DNA from: Acholeplasma sp. OttesenSCG-928-E16
GTDB taxonomy: Bacteria; Bacillota_I; Bacilli_A; Acholeplasmatales; Acholeplasmataceae
Direction of reading: 5' to 3'
Length of the DNA stretch: 64,000 nucleotides
NCBI GenBank assembly: GCA_030266845.1
Contig: JAJDIT010000002.1
Location: 1 to 64,000 of the forward strand
Within the stretch, counting starts at the first letter, position 1. Each line of letters starts with the position of its first letter. The notes under the pieces are model-generated. The model saw nothing but the letters and a program-made list of their open reading frames with translations, was not told the DNA's origin and did not search any database. This document shows positions 53,838 to 62,964 of the stretch, one piece after another. Made by a program: the position numbers and the translations under genes.

Positions 53838-54890
53838 TTATTGGTTAACATTTTTAATTTTTTCGATCACTTTATTATCAAGTGACTTTAGCAGAGCAAA
53901 CAACATTTTTTTGGCTTCTTCAATGTCCCGAATATCAAAAAGTGCTGCATTCGAATGAATATATCTAGCTGGTAGTCCTATTGTGGTAGCTAATACGCCA
54001 TCATTAGAAACTAGTGCCTCCGCAGCATCTGTTCCTCCTTTTGCCACATAATGTTGATGTTTGATTTTCTTTTTTTTGGCAAGAGTAATGAAATACTCAT
54101 AAAGACCTTTAAGCATAATATTTCTTGGATCAATCATTCTTATTAGAAAACCTTCTCCAAGTTTTGCCATTGAATTATTATCTAGTGAGTCGTTTACTGG
54201 AGATGAGTCTAGGGCTATAAAACAATCTGGCTTGAATTTTTTTGTGGCAGTACTTGCCCCTCTTAGTCCCACTTCCTCTAAAACGGTAGCTCCAATAATC
54301 AAATTATACGGTAAATCGATTTGGTCAAATTTCTTAGCGGCTATCAAAGCTAAAGCGCAACCAAAACGATTGTCTATTGCCTTAGAGATAAATCTACTCT
54401 TATTGATAGTACTAATGATTTCTGGTCTAAAGGTCACCATATTGCCTAGTCTAACTCCAGCATTTATCGCTTCTTCTTTTGATTTTGCTCCAATATCAAG
54501 ATATATCTCGCTTGAAGATTGATATAAAGAAGATAAATGGGTAGGGATTGATGGAACAACCCCAGAGATAACTCCATTATCAGTAAATACGTTTAAAACT
54601 TGCGATGTTAATGTTTCTCTAACAAGACCACCAATTGGATTTAATTTTAATAATCCAGTTTCGCTAATCTCAACAACCATCAATCCTACTTCATCCATAT
54701 GGCCAGCTACTAAAATAGTTTTCGCGTCAGCCTCGCTTGACTTCTTTACTAAAAAAATACTACCTAAATTATCATACTCTATTTGGTAATTTTTCAACTT
54801 TTTCGAGTATTCTTTAATATAGTTTCTAATATCATTTTCATATCCTGATATTCCACTTAGAAGTAATAAATCTCTTAATTCTTTGTCCAT
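53838..54890 (-). CDS. M42-family aminopeptidase/endoglucanase-like metallopeptidase
   Basis: Tetrahedral aminopeptidase family, 350 residues with two-metal site motifs: VAGHMDEVGLMV, KAIDNRFGCALAL, TVLEEVGLRGAST, ALDSSPVNDS, and YVAKGGTDAAE near the C terminus. Acts on peptide N termini in the cytoplasm; often misnamed cellulase. Overlaps trmB by 16 bp. Confidence 0.92.
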   Translation of the reverse strand: MDKELRDLLLLSGISGYENDIRNYIKEYSKKLKNYQIEYDNLGSIFLVKKSSEADAKTILVAGHMDEVGLMVVEISETGLLKLNPIGGLVRETLTSQVLNVFTDNGVISGVVPSIPTHLSSLYQSSSEIYLDIGAKSKEEAINAGVRLGNMVTFRPEIISTINKSRFISKAIDNRFGCALALIAAKKFDQIDLPYNLIIGATVLEEVGLRGASTATKKFKPDCFIALDSSPVNDSLDNNSMAKLGEGFLIRMIDPRNIMLKGLYEYFITLAKKKKIKHQHYVAKGGTDAAEALVSNDGVLATTIGLPARYIHSNAALFDIRDIEEAKKMLFALLKSLDNKVIEKIKNVNQ

Positions 54891-55492
54891 ATTTTTTCTC
54901 CAACTAATTGATTAATATTGCCATATGCTCTTTTTTTAATTTCATATTCGCTCATGTATTTACTCTCTTTTAGGTTTTCATCTTTATTAATAATCCTAAA
55001 TAGCTTACTATTTTTTATATATTCAATACTATCTAGGAAAAGTTCATTATGGTCAGTTCTAAACTGGATTAATCCCTTGTCTTTTAAAATATTATGATAT
55101 GAATCAAGAAAAGTTTGATTAGTTAGTCTTCTTTTGTGATGTTTTGATTTCGGCCAAGGATCTGAAAAATTTAGGTATATACAGTCTACCTGGTTCAAAT
55201 GAAAATACTCTTCTAGATGTTTAGCATCATCTAATACGATGAATAAATTATCTAACATGTAAGCCTCTTTTTTTTCTAAAATCCGATAACATACACTGAT
55301 GTTTTTCTCAAAAGCCACAAATATTTCATCTTTATAGTCTCTTGCTAATGAAGTAATGAAAAGTCCTTTCCCACTACCGACCTCTAGGTTAACCCTCTTA
55401 TTTTCATCAAATGAGAAAAACTTCGGTTCACCAATTATACCGCGTTCTAATAAGCTAGCTTTACTTATACCCTTAATTTTCTTCTGACGCAA
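54875..55492 (-). CDS. trmB: tRNA (guanine-N7-)-methyltransferase
   Basis: Methylates G46 of tRNA. The 205 residues carry the SAM site LEVGSGKGLFITSLA, IYLNFSDPWPKSKHHKRRLTN and a late FRTDHNELFLDSIEY. Normal length. It overlaps the DUF368 gene by 20 bp and the M42 gene by 16 bp, within a tightly packed run. Confidence 0.95.
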   Translation of the reverse strand: MRQKKIKGISKASLLERGIIGEPKFFSFDENKRVNLEVGSGKGLFITSLARDYKDEIFVAFEKNISVCYRILEKKEAYMLDNLFIVLDDAKHLEEYFHLNQVDCIYLNFSDPWPKSKHHKRRLTNQTFLDSYHNILKDKGLIQFRTDHNELFLDSIEYIKNSKLFRIINKDENLKESKYMSEYEIKKRAYGNINQLVGEKIWTKN

Positions 55493-56393
55493 TTTTTACT
55501 TCCTCATTCTTTTCCTTCTTTTTTTTAATAAATAATAGCGCTAAAGCTAATCCGATAACAAATAGTACTCCACAAATCAACCAAACATACCACTCTTGAT
55601 CAAAGATGTATGGTGGAATCTCTCCACCGCTTGGATCATTAATTTCAAGCTGATTTTCTTTAAATAAGGAGAGCATTATATTCGCTGGAGATATAATAAC
55701 AATACCGATTATGGCATAATTAAAATGAATAGGGGCTTTCTTTATTGCAAAATTTAAGGGTTTTGCAAATAATAACATACCTGCTGCAACTCCTAAAAGA
55801 ACCACTAAAACGCCAAGGAAATTGGAGAATACCCCATTTAATATTTCGTTGCCAAACTCAGTAAATAAAGTGTAAAAACCAAAAGCCATCAAAAGCATCG
55901 TCCCACTCAAACCAGGAACAATAAATGATAATGCCATAATAACACCTATTAAAAAATAGATTAGATACTTAACTCCACCAGTGATTTCATATGTTAATCC
56001 ACCATCAATAAAACATACTCCGACCATTAAAAGGGCCGATACTATCATTGTAATGATGTGTGATGGTCTAATTTTTATCCCTTTAATCTCTTGAAATAGT
56101 TGAGGTATCTCCCCTATAATTAATCCCATAAAAAAGAAAGTAACCGGTAGTTTAAAAAGTTCAAAAACAAAAGAAACAAAAAAATAACCGACGATCACCC
56201 CAAGGGCAATACCAACTAAAAACTGCCAAATTGAAGTGATTGCTTTAATCGGATGTTTAATAAAATTATTCAAAGCTTCCACGAGATCTTTATATATATT
56301 AAAGGCGGCAGCTATCACGCCACCGCTAACACCTGGTAAAATAGCACCAATACCAACTAAAGAACCCTTTAATATCTTGGCTATATTATTCAT
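55473..56393 (-). CDS. DUF368 membrane protein, candidate polyprenyl-phosphate translocase (PopT)
   Basis: Eight or so hydrophobic segments over 306 residues, with the DUF368 hallmarks GAILPGVSGGVIAAAFNIYKD at 17-37 and ALSFIVPGLSGTMLLMAFG in the second repeat. Proteins of this family (PopT) flip undecaprenyl phosphate back into the cytoplasm for cell-wall and envelope-glycan synthesis; the role is inferred by family. Overlaps the HPr gene by 8 bp. It would make sense in an organism that still has polyprenyl-linked envelope glycans. Confidence 0.85.
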   Translation of the reverse strand: MNNIAKILKGSLVGIGAILPGVSGGVIAAAFNIYKDLVEALNNFIKHPIKAITSIWQFLVGIALGVIVGYFFVSFVFELFKLPVTFFFMGLIIGEIPQLFQEIKGIKIRPSHIITMIVSALLMVGVCFIDGGLTYEITGGVKYLIYFLIGVIMALSFIVPGLSGTMLLMAFGFYTLFTEFGNEILNGVFSNFLGVLVVLLGVAAGMLLFAKPLNFAIKKAPIHFNYAIIGIVIISPANIMLSLFKENQLEINDPSGGEIPPYIFDQEWYVWLICGVLFVIGLALALLFIKKKKEKNEEVKIASEEN

Positions 56394-56661
56394 GACTTAC
56401 TTTGCCAATTCCCTCCGTAGTCAAATAAGCAGTCATTTCATCAAGGGCTTCTATTTCATCTGTACCATTAGCAATTATTGAAATATTTTCTCCCTTATAG
56501 ATACCTAATGACATAACACCCATTACAGATTTTAAATTGACTACTTGACCCTTTGCCTTAAGTAGCAAATCAGCATCGAACATCATTGCCTTATTAACCA
56601 TTTTTGTAGCTGGTCTAGCATGAAGTCCATATTCTGCAGTAATAATGAAATTCCTTTCCAT
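56386..56661 (-). CDS. HPr-family phosphocarrier protein
   Basis: A PTS-type carrier of 91 residues with the phospho-histidine H14 in EYGLHARPATKMV and the regulatory-site-like S45 in NLKSVMGVMSLGI, which resembles the Ser46 region modified by HPr kinase. EI is not in this window, so it is not next to ptsI. It could be the general HPr or a Crh-like paralogue; presence of both His and Ser fits HPr. It follows the EIIB-like gene by 2 bases. Confidence 0.92.
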   Translation of the reverse strand: MERNFIITAEYGLHARPATKMVNKAMMFDADLLLKAKGQVVNLKSVMGVMSLGIYKGENISIIANGTDEIEALDEMTAYLTTEGIGKVSHE

Positions 56662-56663
56662 CC

Positions 56664-57017
56664 TTATTCTCCTTTATGTTTTTTAGTTAATAGCTGATAA
56701 ACCAACTCTGGTTCATCCTTGACTAATATTTTCAGTTCATTCCCTTTTAAAAAAGCAGAAATTCCAAGTTCTTTAAAACCATCTTGATTGATACTTTTAA
56801 TATCGTTTACTATTACTCCTAATCTCTTATTTGATAAAGTAAACTCCTTGATGTTTGTATTACCGCCTAGGTAATCAAAAAGCTTATCCACATAGCTTGG
56901 AATAATAACTGTATCTTCCTTTTTATTTCTTGAAATAATAAACATCAACAAAAAGATGATGAATACAACAAATAATACAATTCCGATTATTAAAAATATA
57001 ATTTGCTCTTTTGTCAT
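56664..57017 (-). CDS. Membrane-anchored EIIB-like protein lacking the phosphorylation cysteine
   Basis: The 117 residues comprise one N-terminal membrane segment (about 5-29) followed by a soluble domain that follows PTS glucose-family EIIB closely: DYLGGNTNIKEFTLSNKRLGVIVND, FKELGISAFL and a final strand. In true EIIB the pattern is GGxxNI...DxCxTRLR; here the Cys aligns with S62 and the TRLR with KRLG. It therefore cannot be phosphorylated in the usual way. It is 2 bases from HPr, so a regulatory or adaptor role at the membrane is inferred. Family naming rests on manual alignment only. Confidence 0.7.
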   Translation of the reverse strand: MTKEQIIFLIIGIVLFVVFIIFLLMFIISRNKKEDTVIIPSYVDKLFDYLGGNTNIKEFTLSNKRLGVIVNDIKSINQDGFKELGISAFLKGNELKILVKDEPELVYQLLTKKHKGE

Positions 57018-57082
57018 GAATAACTCCTCTTATAGATTAATTATACTAATTAATGTCTTTTCTTTCAATAATTTGCTTACTT

Positions 57083-58099
57083 TTAATAAATAAACATCGC
57101 ATCTCCGAATGAAAAGAAACGGTATCTTCTATTGATTGCCTCATTGTAGGCTTTCATTATAGAATCTTTGTTGGAAAATGCCGATATCAGCATTAATAAA
57201 GTCGACTTTGGTAAATGAAAGTTTGTGATAATTGCATCTACTACCTTAAACTTATAAGGAGGATAAATAAAAATATCTGTATTAAATGTTCCCGCTTTAA
57301 ATCCGTTTTGGTAATTACTTTCCAATGTTCTTACAGTTGTCGTACCACAAGCGATAATCCTTTTTTTAAACTTTATAGCCTCATTTAGTTTTTTTGCGAC
57401 ATCCTCATTAATAATATAGGTTTCTTGATGCATCTTATGACTATTAACATCATCTACCACAACCGGTCTAAATGTCCCTAAACCTACATGAAGAGTAATC
57501 TCAAGCACCATAACACCTTTTTCTTTAATTCTATTTAATAGTTCCTCTGTAAAGTGAAGACCAGCTGTAGGAGCTGCTGCAGAACCAGAAATGCTCGCAT
57601 AAACTGTTTGGTATCGATTATTATCAGTTAGTTTCTCTTTGATGTATGGTGGTAAGGGCATTGTACCTAATTTTTCTAATACTTCTAGAAAAATACCTTG
57701 ATAACTAAATTTAAAAATTCTAATTCCTTCTTCTAATACAGCAACGCATTCTGCTGTAATTAGACCAGCAAAATTAATGATAGTTCCTACTTTAATTCTT
57801 TTAGCTGGTTTAGCTAATGCCTCCCAATGATCCTTATCAACTTCCTTTAATAATAAAATCTCGATAAGTGCATTTGTATCTTTTTTTTCACCAATCAATC
57901 TAGCAGGTATTACTTTTGTGTTATTGATAACTAGGCAGTCATCTTTATTTAAATAATCAACTATCTGGTAAAAACTACAGTGTTCAATCTCGTTTGTATT
58001 TTTATTTAGAGAGAGTAGCTTTGAGTGATCTCTTTTTTCATTTGGATGTTGGGCTATCAGTTCATCAGGTAAGTTAAAATCAAAATCAGATGTCTTCAT
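57083..58099 (-). CDS. queA: S-adenosylmethionine:tRNA ribosyltransferase-isomerase
   Basis: Adds the epoxycyclopentane precursor of queuosine to preQ1 in tRNA. ATG 58099 is preferred over TTG 58105; it gives 338 residues. Conserved segments are [38 protein letters not shown], and [16 protein letters not shown]. It overlaps ruvB by 14 bp. No preQ1 biosynthesis genes or riboswitch in the window, so preQ1/queuine may be salvaged. Confidence 0.95.
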
Positions 58100-59102
58100 C
58101 AGCAAACAATCCCTTATGATATTTTTTGTTAAGTTCTTTATATGCTTTTTCGGTTGCTACTCTTCCTCTTGGAGTCCTTTTTATATATCCTTCTTGAATC
58201 AAAAAAGGTTCATAAACGTCCTCAATTGTCGTAATTTCTTCCGATAAACTTGCTGCAATATTCTCGATTCCTACTGGACCACCATTAAATTTTTCAACTA
58301 TCCCTCTTAAGTAGCGCTTATCAGTTTCATCTAGTCCATTTAAATTGACTCCTAATCTTAATAATGCATGCTCTGTAATCTTCCGGTTAATTTTCCCATC
58401 ATGCAAGACTTGAGCAAAATCACGGATTCTTCTAAAAAGACGATTGGCTACTCTTGGGGTTCCTCTACAACATCCAGCAAGCAACCTTGCGGCATCCTCT
58501 TCTATATCTGTTTGATAGACTCTTGAAGTTCGATTAATGATTGTTTCAATCTCTTCTTTATTATAATAACTAAGCCTTAGGACAACTCCAAAGCGATCCC
58601 TAAGCGGAGCAGAAAGATCACCATATCTTGTCGTTGCTCCTACTAATGTAAATGGATTTAAATCCAGTCTAATCGATCTTGATTCACCATCTTTGCCGAT
58701 TACAATATCAATTACATAATCTTCCATCGCCGAGTATAAAACTTCTTCTATAACCCTAGGTAAACGATGCATCTCATCAATGAATAACACATCTCCTGGA
58801 GAAAGCGAGGTCAAAATGGCTGCTAAATCACCAGTTTTCTCAATTGCTGGACCACTAGTAATCTTTATATTCACACCCATTTCATTGGCAATTATTTGGG
58901 CCAAAGTCGTCTTTCCTAAGCCAGGAGGACCATACAACAAAACGTGGTCTAACGACTCACTACGTTTTAGTGCTGCTTTGATATAAACATCAAGCATTTC
59001 CTTATTTTCTTTTTGACCAATATATTGGCTTAATCGGTCAGGACGAAGGCTTTCTTCTTCATCACCATCTAATAAATTACTGTCGACAACTCTTTCTTTC
59101 AT
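58086..59102 (-). CDS. ruvB: Holliday junction branch-migration ATPase RuvB
   Basis: Hexameric motor with RuvA. The 338 residues (from ATG 59102, preceded by AGGGTG; a GTG at 59111 is also possible) include [20 protein letters not shown], Walker [12 protein letters not shown], Walker [12 protein letters not shown], sensor 1 [19 protein letters not shown] and the C-terminal winged helix [14 protein letters not shown]. Organised ruvA-ruvB-queA, a conserved gene order. Confidence 0.97.
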
Positions 59103-59107
59103 TTTTG

Positions 59108-59659
59108 TCACCCTATTAATATTTGCAAGGCTTGTTTGATCATATCTTCAACCTTTAAATCGTGATTAACCTTTTTTAAAGCCTTTTTTATTTCGGTTCT
59201 TCCATAGCCAAGCGCCATTAAAGCATCCACACAATCACTACTTTGATCAGGAATTAGTGAATCTTCGATCGTCAGTTTTCCCTTTAAGTCAAGAATTATT
59301 TGTTGTGCTGACTTTAAACCAATACCAGGATATCTAGTAAGGTATTTAGCGTCGCCACTTTCTATCGCTTCTACAACATCATTAGTTTTTCCTGAGGCCA
59401 AAATACTAAGAGCGCTCTTTGGACCGATCCCTGAGACGCTAATTAACTTGATAAATAAATCTCTTGACTCAGTACTAGGAAAACCATATAGATTAAATAT
59501 ATCTTCCCTAACGTAATGATAAAGGAAAATAATTACCTTATCATCCAGCTTATAATTATACGGATTTGGGGTTATTATTAAATACCCAATCTCATTGTTT
59601 TCAATGACTATATTAGTCGGATTAACTTCTTTTACAACACCTTTTATATAACTATACAT
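59108..59659 (-). CDS. ruvA: Holliday junction DNA helicase subunit RuvA
   Basis: Binds the four-way junction and loads RuvB. The 183 residues have the N-terminal OB domain ([20 protein letters not shown]), two helix-hairpin-helix motifs ([39 protein letters not shown]) and a C-terminal RuvB-contact domain ([17 protein letters not shown]). Its TGA overlaps the GTG candidate of ruvB. No ruvC; recU is at 36280. Confidence 0.96.
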
Positions 59660-59742
59660 AGTAATCTCCTAACTTGTTCAATTATACCATTTTTCAACCC
59701 ACTATTAAAGAGTTTATAAGATAAACTTTATAACATTTGTGT

Positions 59743-59748
59743 TATAAT
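59743..59748 (+). promoter_or_regulatory. Extended -10 element for the coiled-coil gene
   Basis: TATAAT (59743-59748) with TGTGT just upstream; a -35 match is poor. The start of transcription would be near 59755, so the GGAGG (59756-59760) lies at the very 5' end of the mRNA. Confidence 0.5.
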
Positions 59749-59766
59749 CTTAATTGGAGGCAGTTC

Positions 59767-62700
59767 TTGGAGAAAAAAATATTTAATGAGCAAAATTTGA
59801 TGAAAATTAAAGATGCTATATCACTAAACAAAACTGATAAAGACCGATTATTAGTTTTTTTTGAAAAGTATAACGACCTCTTTTCTTCTATCCAATTAAA
59901 AGTCGATAACTTTAGAACAAAAATTGATAGTGAGATCGATGGCTTAATTGAAGCCCAAAAAGCTAATGAAAGAAAGTTAGAAGCTTCCATTTTACTTAGT
60001 GAGAAAAAAATAAAACAACAAGCTGAAATGATCAACACAAAATATGATACTCTTAAGTTTAACAACTATGTTGTTGCATTAAATGAAAAGGATGTTGCTA
60101 CAAAAAACTTAGTTAGTGTTAAAAAATCATTTAACGATGAAAAAGCCAAAAGCGACTTAGATTTTAAAGATTATCTTGCTTCCATGGAGCAAAAAGCTCA
60201 AGAAAGCAAGAATTCATATAATTTAAACTCAACTAACATCAGTCAAAAAACAGCTAGGCGAAAGAAAAGACTTTCAGTAATATACGAAAACCTCGTCCAA
60301 AAAGAAAATGAACGTTTTTTACAAATTGAAGATAGTCTATTATCCAAAATCAGCTCTATAAAGCTAAATAAGATAGAATATGAGCTCAATAGCAAGCAAA
60401 ATGAAGAATTGATCAAAGGGCATTATAATAACATTAGCTTGACAGTAAATAAGAAAATAAAAGATGAAAGCCAAGCTCTTATTTCAACAAAAGAAACAAT
60501 TAAAAATGAATATGAGGAATCACTACTTCCACTTGAAAAAAACAGGATATCAATCGAGAAAAATTTTACACAGACCAAAAACGATATTTCCTATCGATAT
60601 TCTAATATTTTAGATGAAGTTAATAAAATTTATGACCAAAAGAAAAAAATATTGGAAAAACAAAGAGCTCAAATAGAAAAAAGATATCTAGAGAGTATAA
60701 TAAATGAAACATCATCCGATAAAATAGAGACGAATCAGCTACTTTACAATCAAGAAATTCAAGCCTTGGAAAAAGAATTATCTGATTTAAGAGAAGCTTG
60801 GGTTTTAGATATTGACCGAAGGAATGAAATTAGAAAGTTAGAAATCGGAAGACAAGAAGCAATTTACCAAACAAACCTAAAAAAACTGGATGAAGCCTTA
60901 AGAAACAAGGAAAGACAGTTTCAAATATCGATTAAAAATGCTGATCTATCAAAAAAGCTTCTCCTACTTCCTTTTGAAATCAATCGAGAATTTTCCTTTA
61001 AACAACGAAATATTAATCTTCAGATTATTGAAAATGAGTTTGAGGTTTTAATTTTAAAAAACGAGATGCTATGTCTATCTACCGAGTTGGAGCTTGAACT
61101 AGCACGCAACACTAACCAATACAATCTTTCCTTATATAAGATTAAATTTGATTACCTTCAAAACAGAATTAGACTTATTAAACAACTGAGTATTGAGGGT
61201 TTCAAACTAAAAAGAGATCATTATTTATCTTTGCTTGAATTTGACAAATACGTCACCAAAAAAAAATATGACCTAGAGTTGTTTAAAAAGCAATTCCCAT
61301 TTAATCAAGCTCAAATCGACAATATTTTCGTCAATAATTCTATTGAGCAAAAAAAATTATTATCTGACTTTTTAATTGAGCAAGAAAGAAATAGTACTCT
61401 AAGTCAAAACGAGGGAAAGCTAAATAATTTGTCTTTGCATCGCTTAAAGGAAATCGATAATACTAGAATCAATTACATAAGAAATCTAATTAGACTTTTA
61501 TCAACTAGAAAAACGGAATACTACAATGCTTTTTTAGATGAATTAAGATTAGTTCCTGATTTTTTTAGGGAATTCTATCTCATTTTCATTCCCCTTTTTG
61601 GTTATCTAGATAAAGAGTCATTATTGATGATTAGAAATCTTTATGCTGACTGCTGTATTAATATTTCTAATTTTATTAAAAACTCTCATAACTCTTTAAA
61701 AAGTAATATTTTGGAATTATCCAAACTTGATATTCTTAATGAAAACTTATTAAAACAATCATATGATTCCTTTTCTACTTTAAGAAATGAGATTATCATT
61801 TCCTTTAAAGAAATATTATCAAGCACGATAAAAAACCTTGAGTTACAGATTTCTAGTCTTTTCAAAGATTTAGAAAAAACTAAGGTTAGGATTAACGATA
61901 TTCTTCTTGATGAAAAAAATACTACCACCAATAGATTAAGAGATACAATTTCACTAATTAATAATGAGCTAAGGGAATCTAGTTTATTCAATAGGATAAG
62001 TTCTGACTTTGGTGGCTTAGAGTTAAATTATGATGAAATAGTGGAAAATAACGATACTAGTTATTTAAATCAAGTGACTATAATTCATCAAGATATATTT
62101 ATTAGTTTAGATAAATTGGTTTCTTCTGTGTTAGCCTTTTTAGAAGGATTTTCAAGCACTAATACAGAAAATACTCACTCATTGAAGGGTAGTTATAATG
62201 ATGGTAGCATTTTAGTTAAGTCGCTAGATGAGTTGTTAGTATCTTTTTCAAATAAACTAACTAACATACCAGATACCGAGTATACTTTTTTAAATGATAC
62301 ATTAAAGGTTGACCAGGGTCTTCTTATTAATAACTACAATTCCTCAAAAGAAGAGTTTCATCTTTATGAGGAAAGAATGTCGGACTTAGATGAGAAAATA
62401 TTAGAGTATCATGGTATCGTCAAAGAGTACTCAAGCGATAAGCTTATAAAAAATAATCGTGACAATCTTAACTATGGAACTAATAACTTCAATAAAAGTG
62501 TCGAAAGAAAAGCTAAGGAGATTCTCCGATTAGAGCATCTTCAAGTAGATAAAAATTCTGAGCTAGATAGATCATTAAATTTAAACAATCAAAACTTAAT
62601 TGATAGTCTTTTATTTTTAAAAAGAACTAGAGATTCTAGTTTAAAAAAATTATCAGCATCCCTAAGGGAGGTTGATCTTCAAACGAAGCATGATACCGGC

Positions 62701-62964
62701 CTTACTCTAGACAAAAGTAGATCATTACTAAAAATGGCCAACACGAGAATTGATCATCAAATTGATCAATTAGAAAGAACCAAAAAAGAATATGTTGAAA
62801 TAAATAAAAAACGTTTAAAGGAAATATTAATAGCTTTAGAAACAGCCAAAAAGGATTCAAAAAACAACCAAGAAGCATTTAAGAAATCACTTGCATTTGA
62901 AGATAAAAAGTACCAAACAGTATTACGGGGTATTGAGCGTGAAATAAAAAAAGAAAGGCTATAA
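59767..62964 (+). CDS. Large coiled-coil protein of unknown function (about 1,065 residues)
   Basis: The probable start is TTG 59767, six bases after GGAGG (59756-59760); the ATG at 59737 lies before the -10 and is rejected. The protein is dominated by Lys/Glu/Asn/Leu-rich heptad stretches from about residue 25 to 500 and again from 830 to 1060. Between them (about 560-830) is a less coiled, more globular part, including a hydrophobic stretch with PDFFREFYLIFIPLFGYL (about 597-615). There is no signal peptide, Walker motif or zinc site, so it is not an SMC ATPase. It may be a cytoskeletal or scaffold element, as found in several wall-less relatives, but this is inference. Confidence 0.72.
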   Translation: MEKKIFNEQNLMKIKDAISLNKTDKDRLLVFFEKYNDLFSSIQLKVDNFRTKIDSEIDGLIEAQKANERKLEASILLSEKKIKQQAEMINTKYDTLKFNNYVVALNEKDVATKNLVSVKKSFNDEKAKSDLDFKDYLASMEQKAQESKNSYNLNSTNISQKTARRKKRLSVIYENLVQKENERFLQIEDSLLSKISSIKLNKIEYELNSKQNEELIKGHYNNISLTVNKKIKDESQALISTKETIKNEYEESLLPLEKNRISIEKNFTQTKNDISYRYSNILDEVNKIYDQKKKILEKQRAQIEKRYLESIINETSSDKIETNQLLYNQEIQALEKELSDLREAWVLDIDRRNEIRKLEIGRQEAIYQTNLKKLDEALRNKERQFQISIKNADLSKKLLLLPFEINREFSFKQRNINLQIIENEFEVLILKNEMLCLSTELELELARNTNQYNLSLYKIKFDYLQNRIRLIKQLSIEGFKLKRDHYLSLLEFDKYVTKKKYDLELFKKQFPFNQAQIDNIFVNNSIEQKKLLSDFLIEQERNSTLSQNEGKLNNLSLHRLKEIDNTRINYIRNLIRLLSTRKTEYYNAFLDELRLVPDFFREFYLIFIPLFGYLDKESLLMIRNLYADCCINISNFIKNSHNSLKSNILELSKLDILNENLLKQSYDSFSTLRNEIIISFKEILSSTIKNLELQISSLFKDLEKTKVRINDILLDEKNTTTNRLRDTISLINNELRESSLFNRISSDFGGLELNYDEIVENNDTSYLNQVTIIHQDIFISLDKLVSSVLAFLEGFSSTNTENTHSLKGSYNDGSILVKSLDELLVSFSNKLTNIPDTEYTFLNDTLKVDQGLLINNYNSSKEEFHLYEERMSDLDEKILEYHGIVKEYSSDKLIKNNRDNLNYGTNNFNKSVERKAKEILRLEHLQVDKNSELDRSLNLNNQNLIDSLLFLKRTRDSSLKKLSASLREVDLQTKHDTGLTLDKSRSLLKMANTRIDHQIDQLERTKKEYVEINKKRLKEILIALETAKKDSKNNQEAFKKSLAFEDKKYQTVLRGIEREIKKERL

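Follow-up and report, generated by a model that had tools for sequence, protein, structure and literature searches.

A membrane-anchored EIIB-like protein without the phosphocysteine, encoded beside HPr in Acholeplasma sp. OttesenSCG-928-E16, with relatives in genomes that lack EI and HPr

The window analysed here, the whole 64,000-nucleotide stretch at positions 1 to 64,000 of contig JAJDIT010000002.1 of Acholeplasma sp. OttesenSCG-928-E16, carries on its reverse strand (54875-59659) the gene string ruvA-ruvB-queA-EIIB*-HPr-(PF04018 membrane protein)-trmB, in which EIIB* is the name used here for a short EIIB-like protein (Table 1) and ruvA, ruvB, queA and trmB were named by recognition, without a family search. 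The EIIB* and HPr reading frames coincide with those given in the initial annotation, which was made from the DNA letters alone. Close spacing (a gap of 2 nt, then an overlap of 8 nt) suggests that the EIIB*, HPr and PF04018 proteins are probably all made from a single transcript; the resemblance of the PF04018 product to NCBIfam PopT is a resemblance only (77 bits against a cut-off of 400). The promoter scan upstream of EIIB* returned 18 matches against a shuffle mean of 23.5, which is no excess. The HPr passes as a canonical member of its family, with the motifs GLHARPAT and LKSVMG intact and with His14 and Ser45 (His15 and Ser46 in the usual numbering, used below) present, in agreement with the earlier reading that it retains its histidine and regulatory serine. 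On the opposite strand, beside ruvA, lies a charged ORF of 1075 codons (59737-62964, +), the product of which is probably a coiled coil.

Table 1. Features of the EIIB*-HPr locus, in coordinates of the window
Feature	Coordinates	Strand	Evidence
EIIB* gene (117 aa, membrane-anchored EIIB-like protein)	56664..57017	-	ORF; 25/27 relatives match TIGR02002
Predicted N-terminal membrane helix of EIIB* (model residues 3-36, RNKK at its end)	56910..57011	-	AlphaFold2 model; hydropathy peak 3.7
Predicted EIIB-Glc fold domain of EIIB* (model residues 38-114; H E E H E E H)	56676..56906	-	model and structure comparison
Ser62 of EIIB*, in the place of the EIIB phosphocysteine (E. coli Cys421)	56832..56834	-	alignment
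Arg65 of EIIB*, equivalent of E. coli EIIB Arg424, kept	56823..56825	-	alignments
HPr gene (91 aa), 2 nt downstream of EIIB*	56386..56661	-	PF00381, 1.2e-25
Polyprenyl-phosphate translocase-like membrane protein (PF04018), 8-nt overlap with the HPr gene	55473..56393	-	family match
Promoter-like TTGAAA-17-TATAAT, ~22 nt upstream of the EIIB* start codon	57040..57068	-	motif scan; hint only

The glucose IIBC model TIGR02002 matches residues 6-96 of EIIB* (E = 1.6e-5), and in an alignment of 27 relatives (A1) it matches 25 proteins, with TIGR00826 matching 13 and PF00367 11 (E <= 0.01). TIGR00826 is not among the listed matches of the window protein itself, which Pfam PTS_EIIB (PF00367) scores at 12.4 bits, below the curated cut-off of 27; the best hit of a phmmer search of PDB sequences, weak when taken alone (E = 0.16), sets Ser62 opposite the phosphocysteine of E. 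coli EIIB-Glc. The membrane helix may be aligned to the end of the EIIC part of TIGR02002 by composition only. An AlphaFold2 model built from the one sequence (mean pLDDT 80.3; two of the five models were near 80, the other three at 49-58) predicts the order helix-E-E-H-E-E-H after the membrane helix, and a structure search with it placed only EIIB domains or PtsG in the first six ranks (Z 9.3-10.5, against Z 5.4 for the seventh), including E. coli EIIB-Glc (1o2f chain B, Z 10.5, rmsd 2.0, 75 residues aligned) and EIIB bound to Mlc (3bp8 chain C, Z 9.3, rmsd 2.3, 74 aligned). As judged from profiles and the model, the resemblance to EIIB exceeds chance, and the relatives make it firm. The initial annotation had described a membrane helix followed by an EIIB pattern, a description upheld by the TIGR02002 match, by the model and by the comparison with EIIB-Glc that it had proposed.

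A membrane segment is indicated by hydropathy in 119 of 120 short relatives, and the 15 residues that follow it contain on average 4.9 Lys or Arg and 1.4 Asp or Glu, an excess of positive charge from which we infer that the C-terminal domain lies on the cytosolic side. Four proteins of family f12 (L186-L189) carry a cysteine-less EIIB domain on a longer N-terminal part (218-242 codons in total) with several hydrophobic stretches in place of the single helix, HPr still being the next gene.

EIIB* contains no cysteine at all: Ser62 stands at the phosphocysteine site, with Lys64-Arg65-Leu66-Gly67 nearby. The initial annotation had proposed that the phosphorylated Cys is replaced by S62, which the alignment confirms, and that the TRLR loop is replaced by KRLG, which is correct as to the letters but obscures that Arg65 is the first TRLR arginine, kept; what has been lost is the cysteine, the threonine and the second arginine. 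The window protein thus has neither the phosphorylatable cysteine nor both T-R-L-R arginines of a functional glucose-family PTS EIIB. Among 147 distinct short relatives from across the class (fewer than 260 codons; L075, a fragment of a long PTS gene, left out here as well as from the short relatives used for hydropathy and for the domain tree), the phosphocysteine column holds E 42, D 20, K 19, S 18, T 17, N 12, V 6, I 5, R 2, Q 2, C 2, A 1 and L 1; in 22 long PTS ORFs of the same class it holds C 18, S 3 and A 1. The cysteine is absent from 145 of the 147, counting as cysteine-less two rows (L115 and L195) in which it stands one residue off the site, and from all 27 proteins of A1, so that its restoration in close relatives, which had been named at the outset as evidence against the proposal, is not seen. 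The two short membrane-anchored relatives that bear it (L073 and L184) both group with PTS EIIBs in a tree of the domain. The position of Arg424 is R in 124 and K in 16 of the 147, and that of Arg426, Gly67 in the window protein, is K in 67. By these alignments, the EIIB* family has lost the phosphorylation site and kept one active-site arginine. That EIIB* is still a phosphoryl carrier, on Ser62 or on an Asp or Glu, is barely credible: Ser62 is hydroxylic and an acidic residue (E or D) occupies the site in 62 of the 147, but the site residue varies freely (K, N, V and I occur as well), only 8 of the 147 have R at the position of Arg426, and the EIIA-Glc family, which is present in 8 of 100 genomes of the window's order as against 78 of 100 for EIIB*, was not found in the other 92. 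Mimicry of a phosphate by the acidic residues is speculation.

The survey of relatives covers the window's class. Single-sequence matches to EIIB* occur in 78 of the 100 genomes sampled from its order, and the EIIB* profile matches 254 of 296 genomes of the class at 1e-5, many of them small, a count that also takes in genomes in which a long frame with a genuine PTS EIIB gives the best match. Families f8 and f18 look mycoplasma- or spiroplasma-like because of their in-frame TGA codons, and the cysteine is likewise missing from their short relatives when TGA is translated as Trp. None of 16 genomes of genus g11 (500-900 kb, without a PTS), which is apparently phytoplasma-like, has EIIB*, and no HPr is among the matches listed for this genus. 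A search of viral contigs for EIIB* relatives found none, and the single locus from a contig scan with EIIB*, in Olleya and matching over 47 residues, was not used.

Three forms of pts operon occur in family f15: complete EIICB-EIIA-HPr-EI operons that encode the cysteine (L178-L180), and two in which a short membrane-anchored EIIB precedes HPr-EI, either with the cysteine (L184) or lacking it (L183). Because all three are found there, the ptsG slot of a pts operon is a likely birthplace of EIIB*. A reading of these operons as a step-by-step series was rejected, as the domain tree (50 rows and 83 columns, three rows less than half filled, bootstrap not settled) puts the cysteine-bearing short proteins L184 and L073 among the PTS EIIBs, which stand apart from the cysteine-less short proteins with support 93/79. 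L184 and L073 look like separate truncations; the cysteine-less group may have a single origin, the domain being too short for firm placement. The loss of the cysteine looks old, because the cysteine-less short proteins fall outside the cysteine-bearing clade. In two f20 genomes the full-length EIICBs (L185 and L080) have Ser at the EIIB cysteine site, and one of these genomes (G126) encodes a separate membrane-anchored EIIB with the cysteine (L073), perhaps for complementation in trans. The presence in one family of the full operon and of short forms with and without the cysteine would suit a relic of ptsG, persisting under little selection while the pts operon decays, but this explanation is improbable given the apparent age of the loss, the breadth of the profile matches in the class, many small genomes included, and the conservation of fold, membrane helix and Arg65 in spite of the missing cysteine.

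Of the 78 genomes of the order that have EIIB*, at least 70 carry HPr as the next gene downstream on the same strand (68 by the positions of Pfam matches, with gaps of 6-48 nt, and G017 and G082 by phmmer), so the survey of HPr neighbours that the initial annotation recommended reveals a conserved neighbour; for G042, G051, G005 and G001 of the order, no HPr is among the matches listed. The EIIB*-HPr pair is found also in f12 (4/4 loci), f16 (4/4), f24 (3/3) and f15 (L183, followed by EI), that is, at all 12 cysteine-less EIIB* loci of these families, and close linkage extends to at least seven families (f1, f3, f5, f12, f15, f16 and f24). Other neighbours occur as well. A NAD kinase gene directly precedes EIIB* on the same strand at 11 of 20 loci in one set and 2 of 20 in another (13/40, with L082 counted among the 40 and NAD kinase Pfam-tested for one lineage), and this nadK-EIIB* order is found in f8, f11, f13, f21 and f27 and at L082, L108 and L111; genes recognised as pyruvate-formate-lyase-like and RodA-like lie near EIIB* in f17, and trpS and a helicase-like gene, also by recognition, in many f18 genomes. 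The link to HPr is old and wide, not universal.

Ser46 is kept in all 46 HPrs linked to EIIB*. In three of them (L097, L098 and L061) His15 has become Gln (two f24 genomes) or Cys (one f3 genome), with Ser46 kept, and these HPrs may be non-carriers; the Gln at this site is reminiscent of Crh of Bacillus. A dedicated paralogue as the linked HPr was considered and rejected, the HPr tree and motifs favouring a general HPr. Arg17 is missing from 17 of 20 unlinked HPrs of the order (the 20 come from 17 genomes and are not all copies), so that the linked protein is probably the general HPr in most genomes. An HPr-family protein elsewhere in the window's own genome (L175:5861-6106, +; C1 near 43,860) has the motif GLHA[ST]LAAK, as does one at L177:4924-5175 (+); both have lost Arg17 and kept His15 and Ser46, and at these two loci, whose surroundings were read, the gene stands in a glycolytic context, between an HTH-cupin regulator and tpiA, behind pgk.

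Of the 296 genomes of the class, 155 have EI (PF05524), 172 have HPr and 120 have neither. An EIIB* match occurs in 97 of these 120; in the 84 of the 97 that were listed, the frame is 99-246 codons long, which implies that the match is not a PTS permease. Within the window's own family, two genomes of genus g9 (G042 and G051, 99% complete) lack EI, HPr kinase and EIIA-Glc, with HPr likewise missing among the matches listed, and their locus reads ruvB-queA-EIIB*-trmB, the HPr and PF04018 genes being gone and EIIB* in place. In the window's own genome EI is present, with three HPrs among the matches listed; EIIA-Glc and HPr kinase were not found in this assembly, which is 86% complete. Its only PTS_EIIC match is an EIIC fused to an EAL domain (L034:382-2574, -; C3), adjoining a fructose-bisphosphate-aldolase-like gene, so that a permease part is tied to c-di-GMP breakdown (EAL being a phosphodiesterase).

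These distributions bear on the possibility that EIIB* is a membrane anchor or sensor for HPr or its phospho-forms, the operon making both together. The linkage in the order and at the 12 loci of f12, f15, f16 and f24 speaks for it, as do the invariant Ser46 of the linked HPrs, the replacement of His15 in three of them and the placement of HPr and MG_129 on the same FtsY in PMC13047044; but it is hard to reconcile with the genomes that keep EIIB* without EI and HPr, and the linked HPr is probably not a dedicated partner. Such a role is possible where HPr is the neighbour, and doubtful for the family. We know of no direct binding of HPr to EIIB-Glc. The sensing or anchoring of PTS components, which the initial annotation had offered as the function, is not supported as a general one, because EIIB* is kept in 97 of the 120 genomes that have neither EI nor HPr, g9 included.

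A literature search on orphan, truncated or solitary EIIB-like proteins and on MG_129/MPN268 yielded only PMC13047044 on the subject, and, with few subscription journals covered, gave no account of the cysteine loss, of the class-wide spread or of retention without EI and HPr. In PMC13047044, M. genitalium MG_129 and M. pneumoniae MPN_268 are named orphan PTS EIIBs, a complex of MG_129 with FtsY and PtsH (HPr) is predicted with AlphaFold3, one crosslink to FtsY is given, and moonlighting is suggested, for example in co-translational protein secretion. The crosslink spans 33.4 A in the predicted complex and thus fits it poorly. The initial annotation knew no description of an EIIB-like protein paired in this way with HPr, which holds only in part, as PMC13047044 has an orphan EIIB in a predicted complex with FtsY and PtsH. 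MG_129/MPN_268, as described there, resembles EIIB* in being an EIIB protein without its own EIIC or EIIA. An orphan EIIB of M. genitalium was thus known already, and EIIB* is not a functional EIIB; obtained here are the fold (by model), the class-wide loss of the cysteine, the membrane segment, the HPr linkage in the order and the retention without EI and HPr. The gene order MG_128-MG_129 would match nadK-EIIB*, and a possible kinship of MG_129 with EIIB* rests on this order; MG_129 is not known to be adjacent to HPr in M. genitalium, unlike EIIB* in the window.

The reading that we favour, with moderate confidence, is that EIIB* no longer takes part in the phosphorelay and serves as a membrane-anchored, non-phosphorylatable docking module. 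To the extent that sequence can tell, its general function is not phosphotransfer, because the cysteine and an EIIC are absent, EIIA-Glc is mostly missing and so, in many genomes, are EI or HPr; the persistence of relatives where the relay is lost suggests that EIIB* probably has another job, and the conserved fold, the membrane anchor and the kept arginine would fit a docking module. EIIB* would descend from the EIIB domain of a glucose-family PTS permease that left the phosphorelay, and its single N-terminal helix would keep the domain at the membrane, on the cytosolic side. Lacking the cysteine, EIIB* would accept no phosphate from EIIA and pass none to sugar, and a fixed docking surface might recruit or position cytosolic proteins at the membrane, in analogy with unphosphorylated E. 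coli EIICB-Glc and the repressor Mlc. The best published candidate for a partner is the SRP receptor FtsY, with HPr as a possible second or lineage-specific partner. A narrower form of the docking reading, rather unlikely as it stands, is that early in the mycoplasma/acholeplasma class an EIIB became a membrane receptor for the positioning of FtsY, to which HPr could be added as a regulatory partner; in genomes that retain HPr in the operon, it would then couple the insertion of membrane proteins to carbon state. A role with FtsY leaves unexplained why HPr is so closely linked in at least seven families, and the absence of EIIB* from g11, although FtsY is expected there, counts against the docking reading. 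The data on EIIB* fit a function outside the PTS.

Short EIIBs of this type are likely taken for PTS parts by homology. According to the survey, EIIB* belongs to a cysteine-less family that is widespread and persists after the PTS has been lost, in bacteria whose genomes approach the minimum size and in which each retained gene matters. Should MG_129 be a member of the family, what is now a loose hint about one Mycoplasma protein could be put to the test, as HPr and EI have been lost naturally in many genomes that can be compared.

Among known systems, the EIIB of E. coli PtsG (EIICB-Glc; 1o2f, 3bp3 and 3bp8) shares with EIIB* the fold, the GG-x2-NI turn and Arg424, whereas EIIB* has no Cys421, Arg426 or EIIC and a single membrane helix, and its genome, unlike the PtsG system, has no EIIA-Glc that could be found (86% complete genome). 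The EIIB fold is used for protein-protein contact in PRD regulators such as AtxA, which have an EIIB-like domain; that of AtxA is of another EIIB type and belongs to a soluble transcription factor, unlike EIIB*. As reported in PMC3901232, dephosphorylated E. coli EIICB-Glc sequesters Mlc at the membrane. This sequestration resembles what is proposed for EIIB*, in that a membrane-bound EIIB domain serves as the docking site for a cytosolic protein; the docking of Mlc is switched by phosphorylation, and EIIB* lacks the site at which that switch operates.
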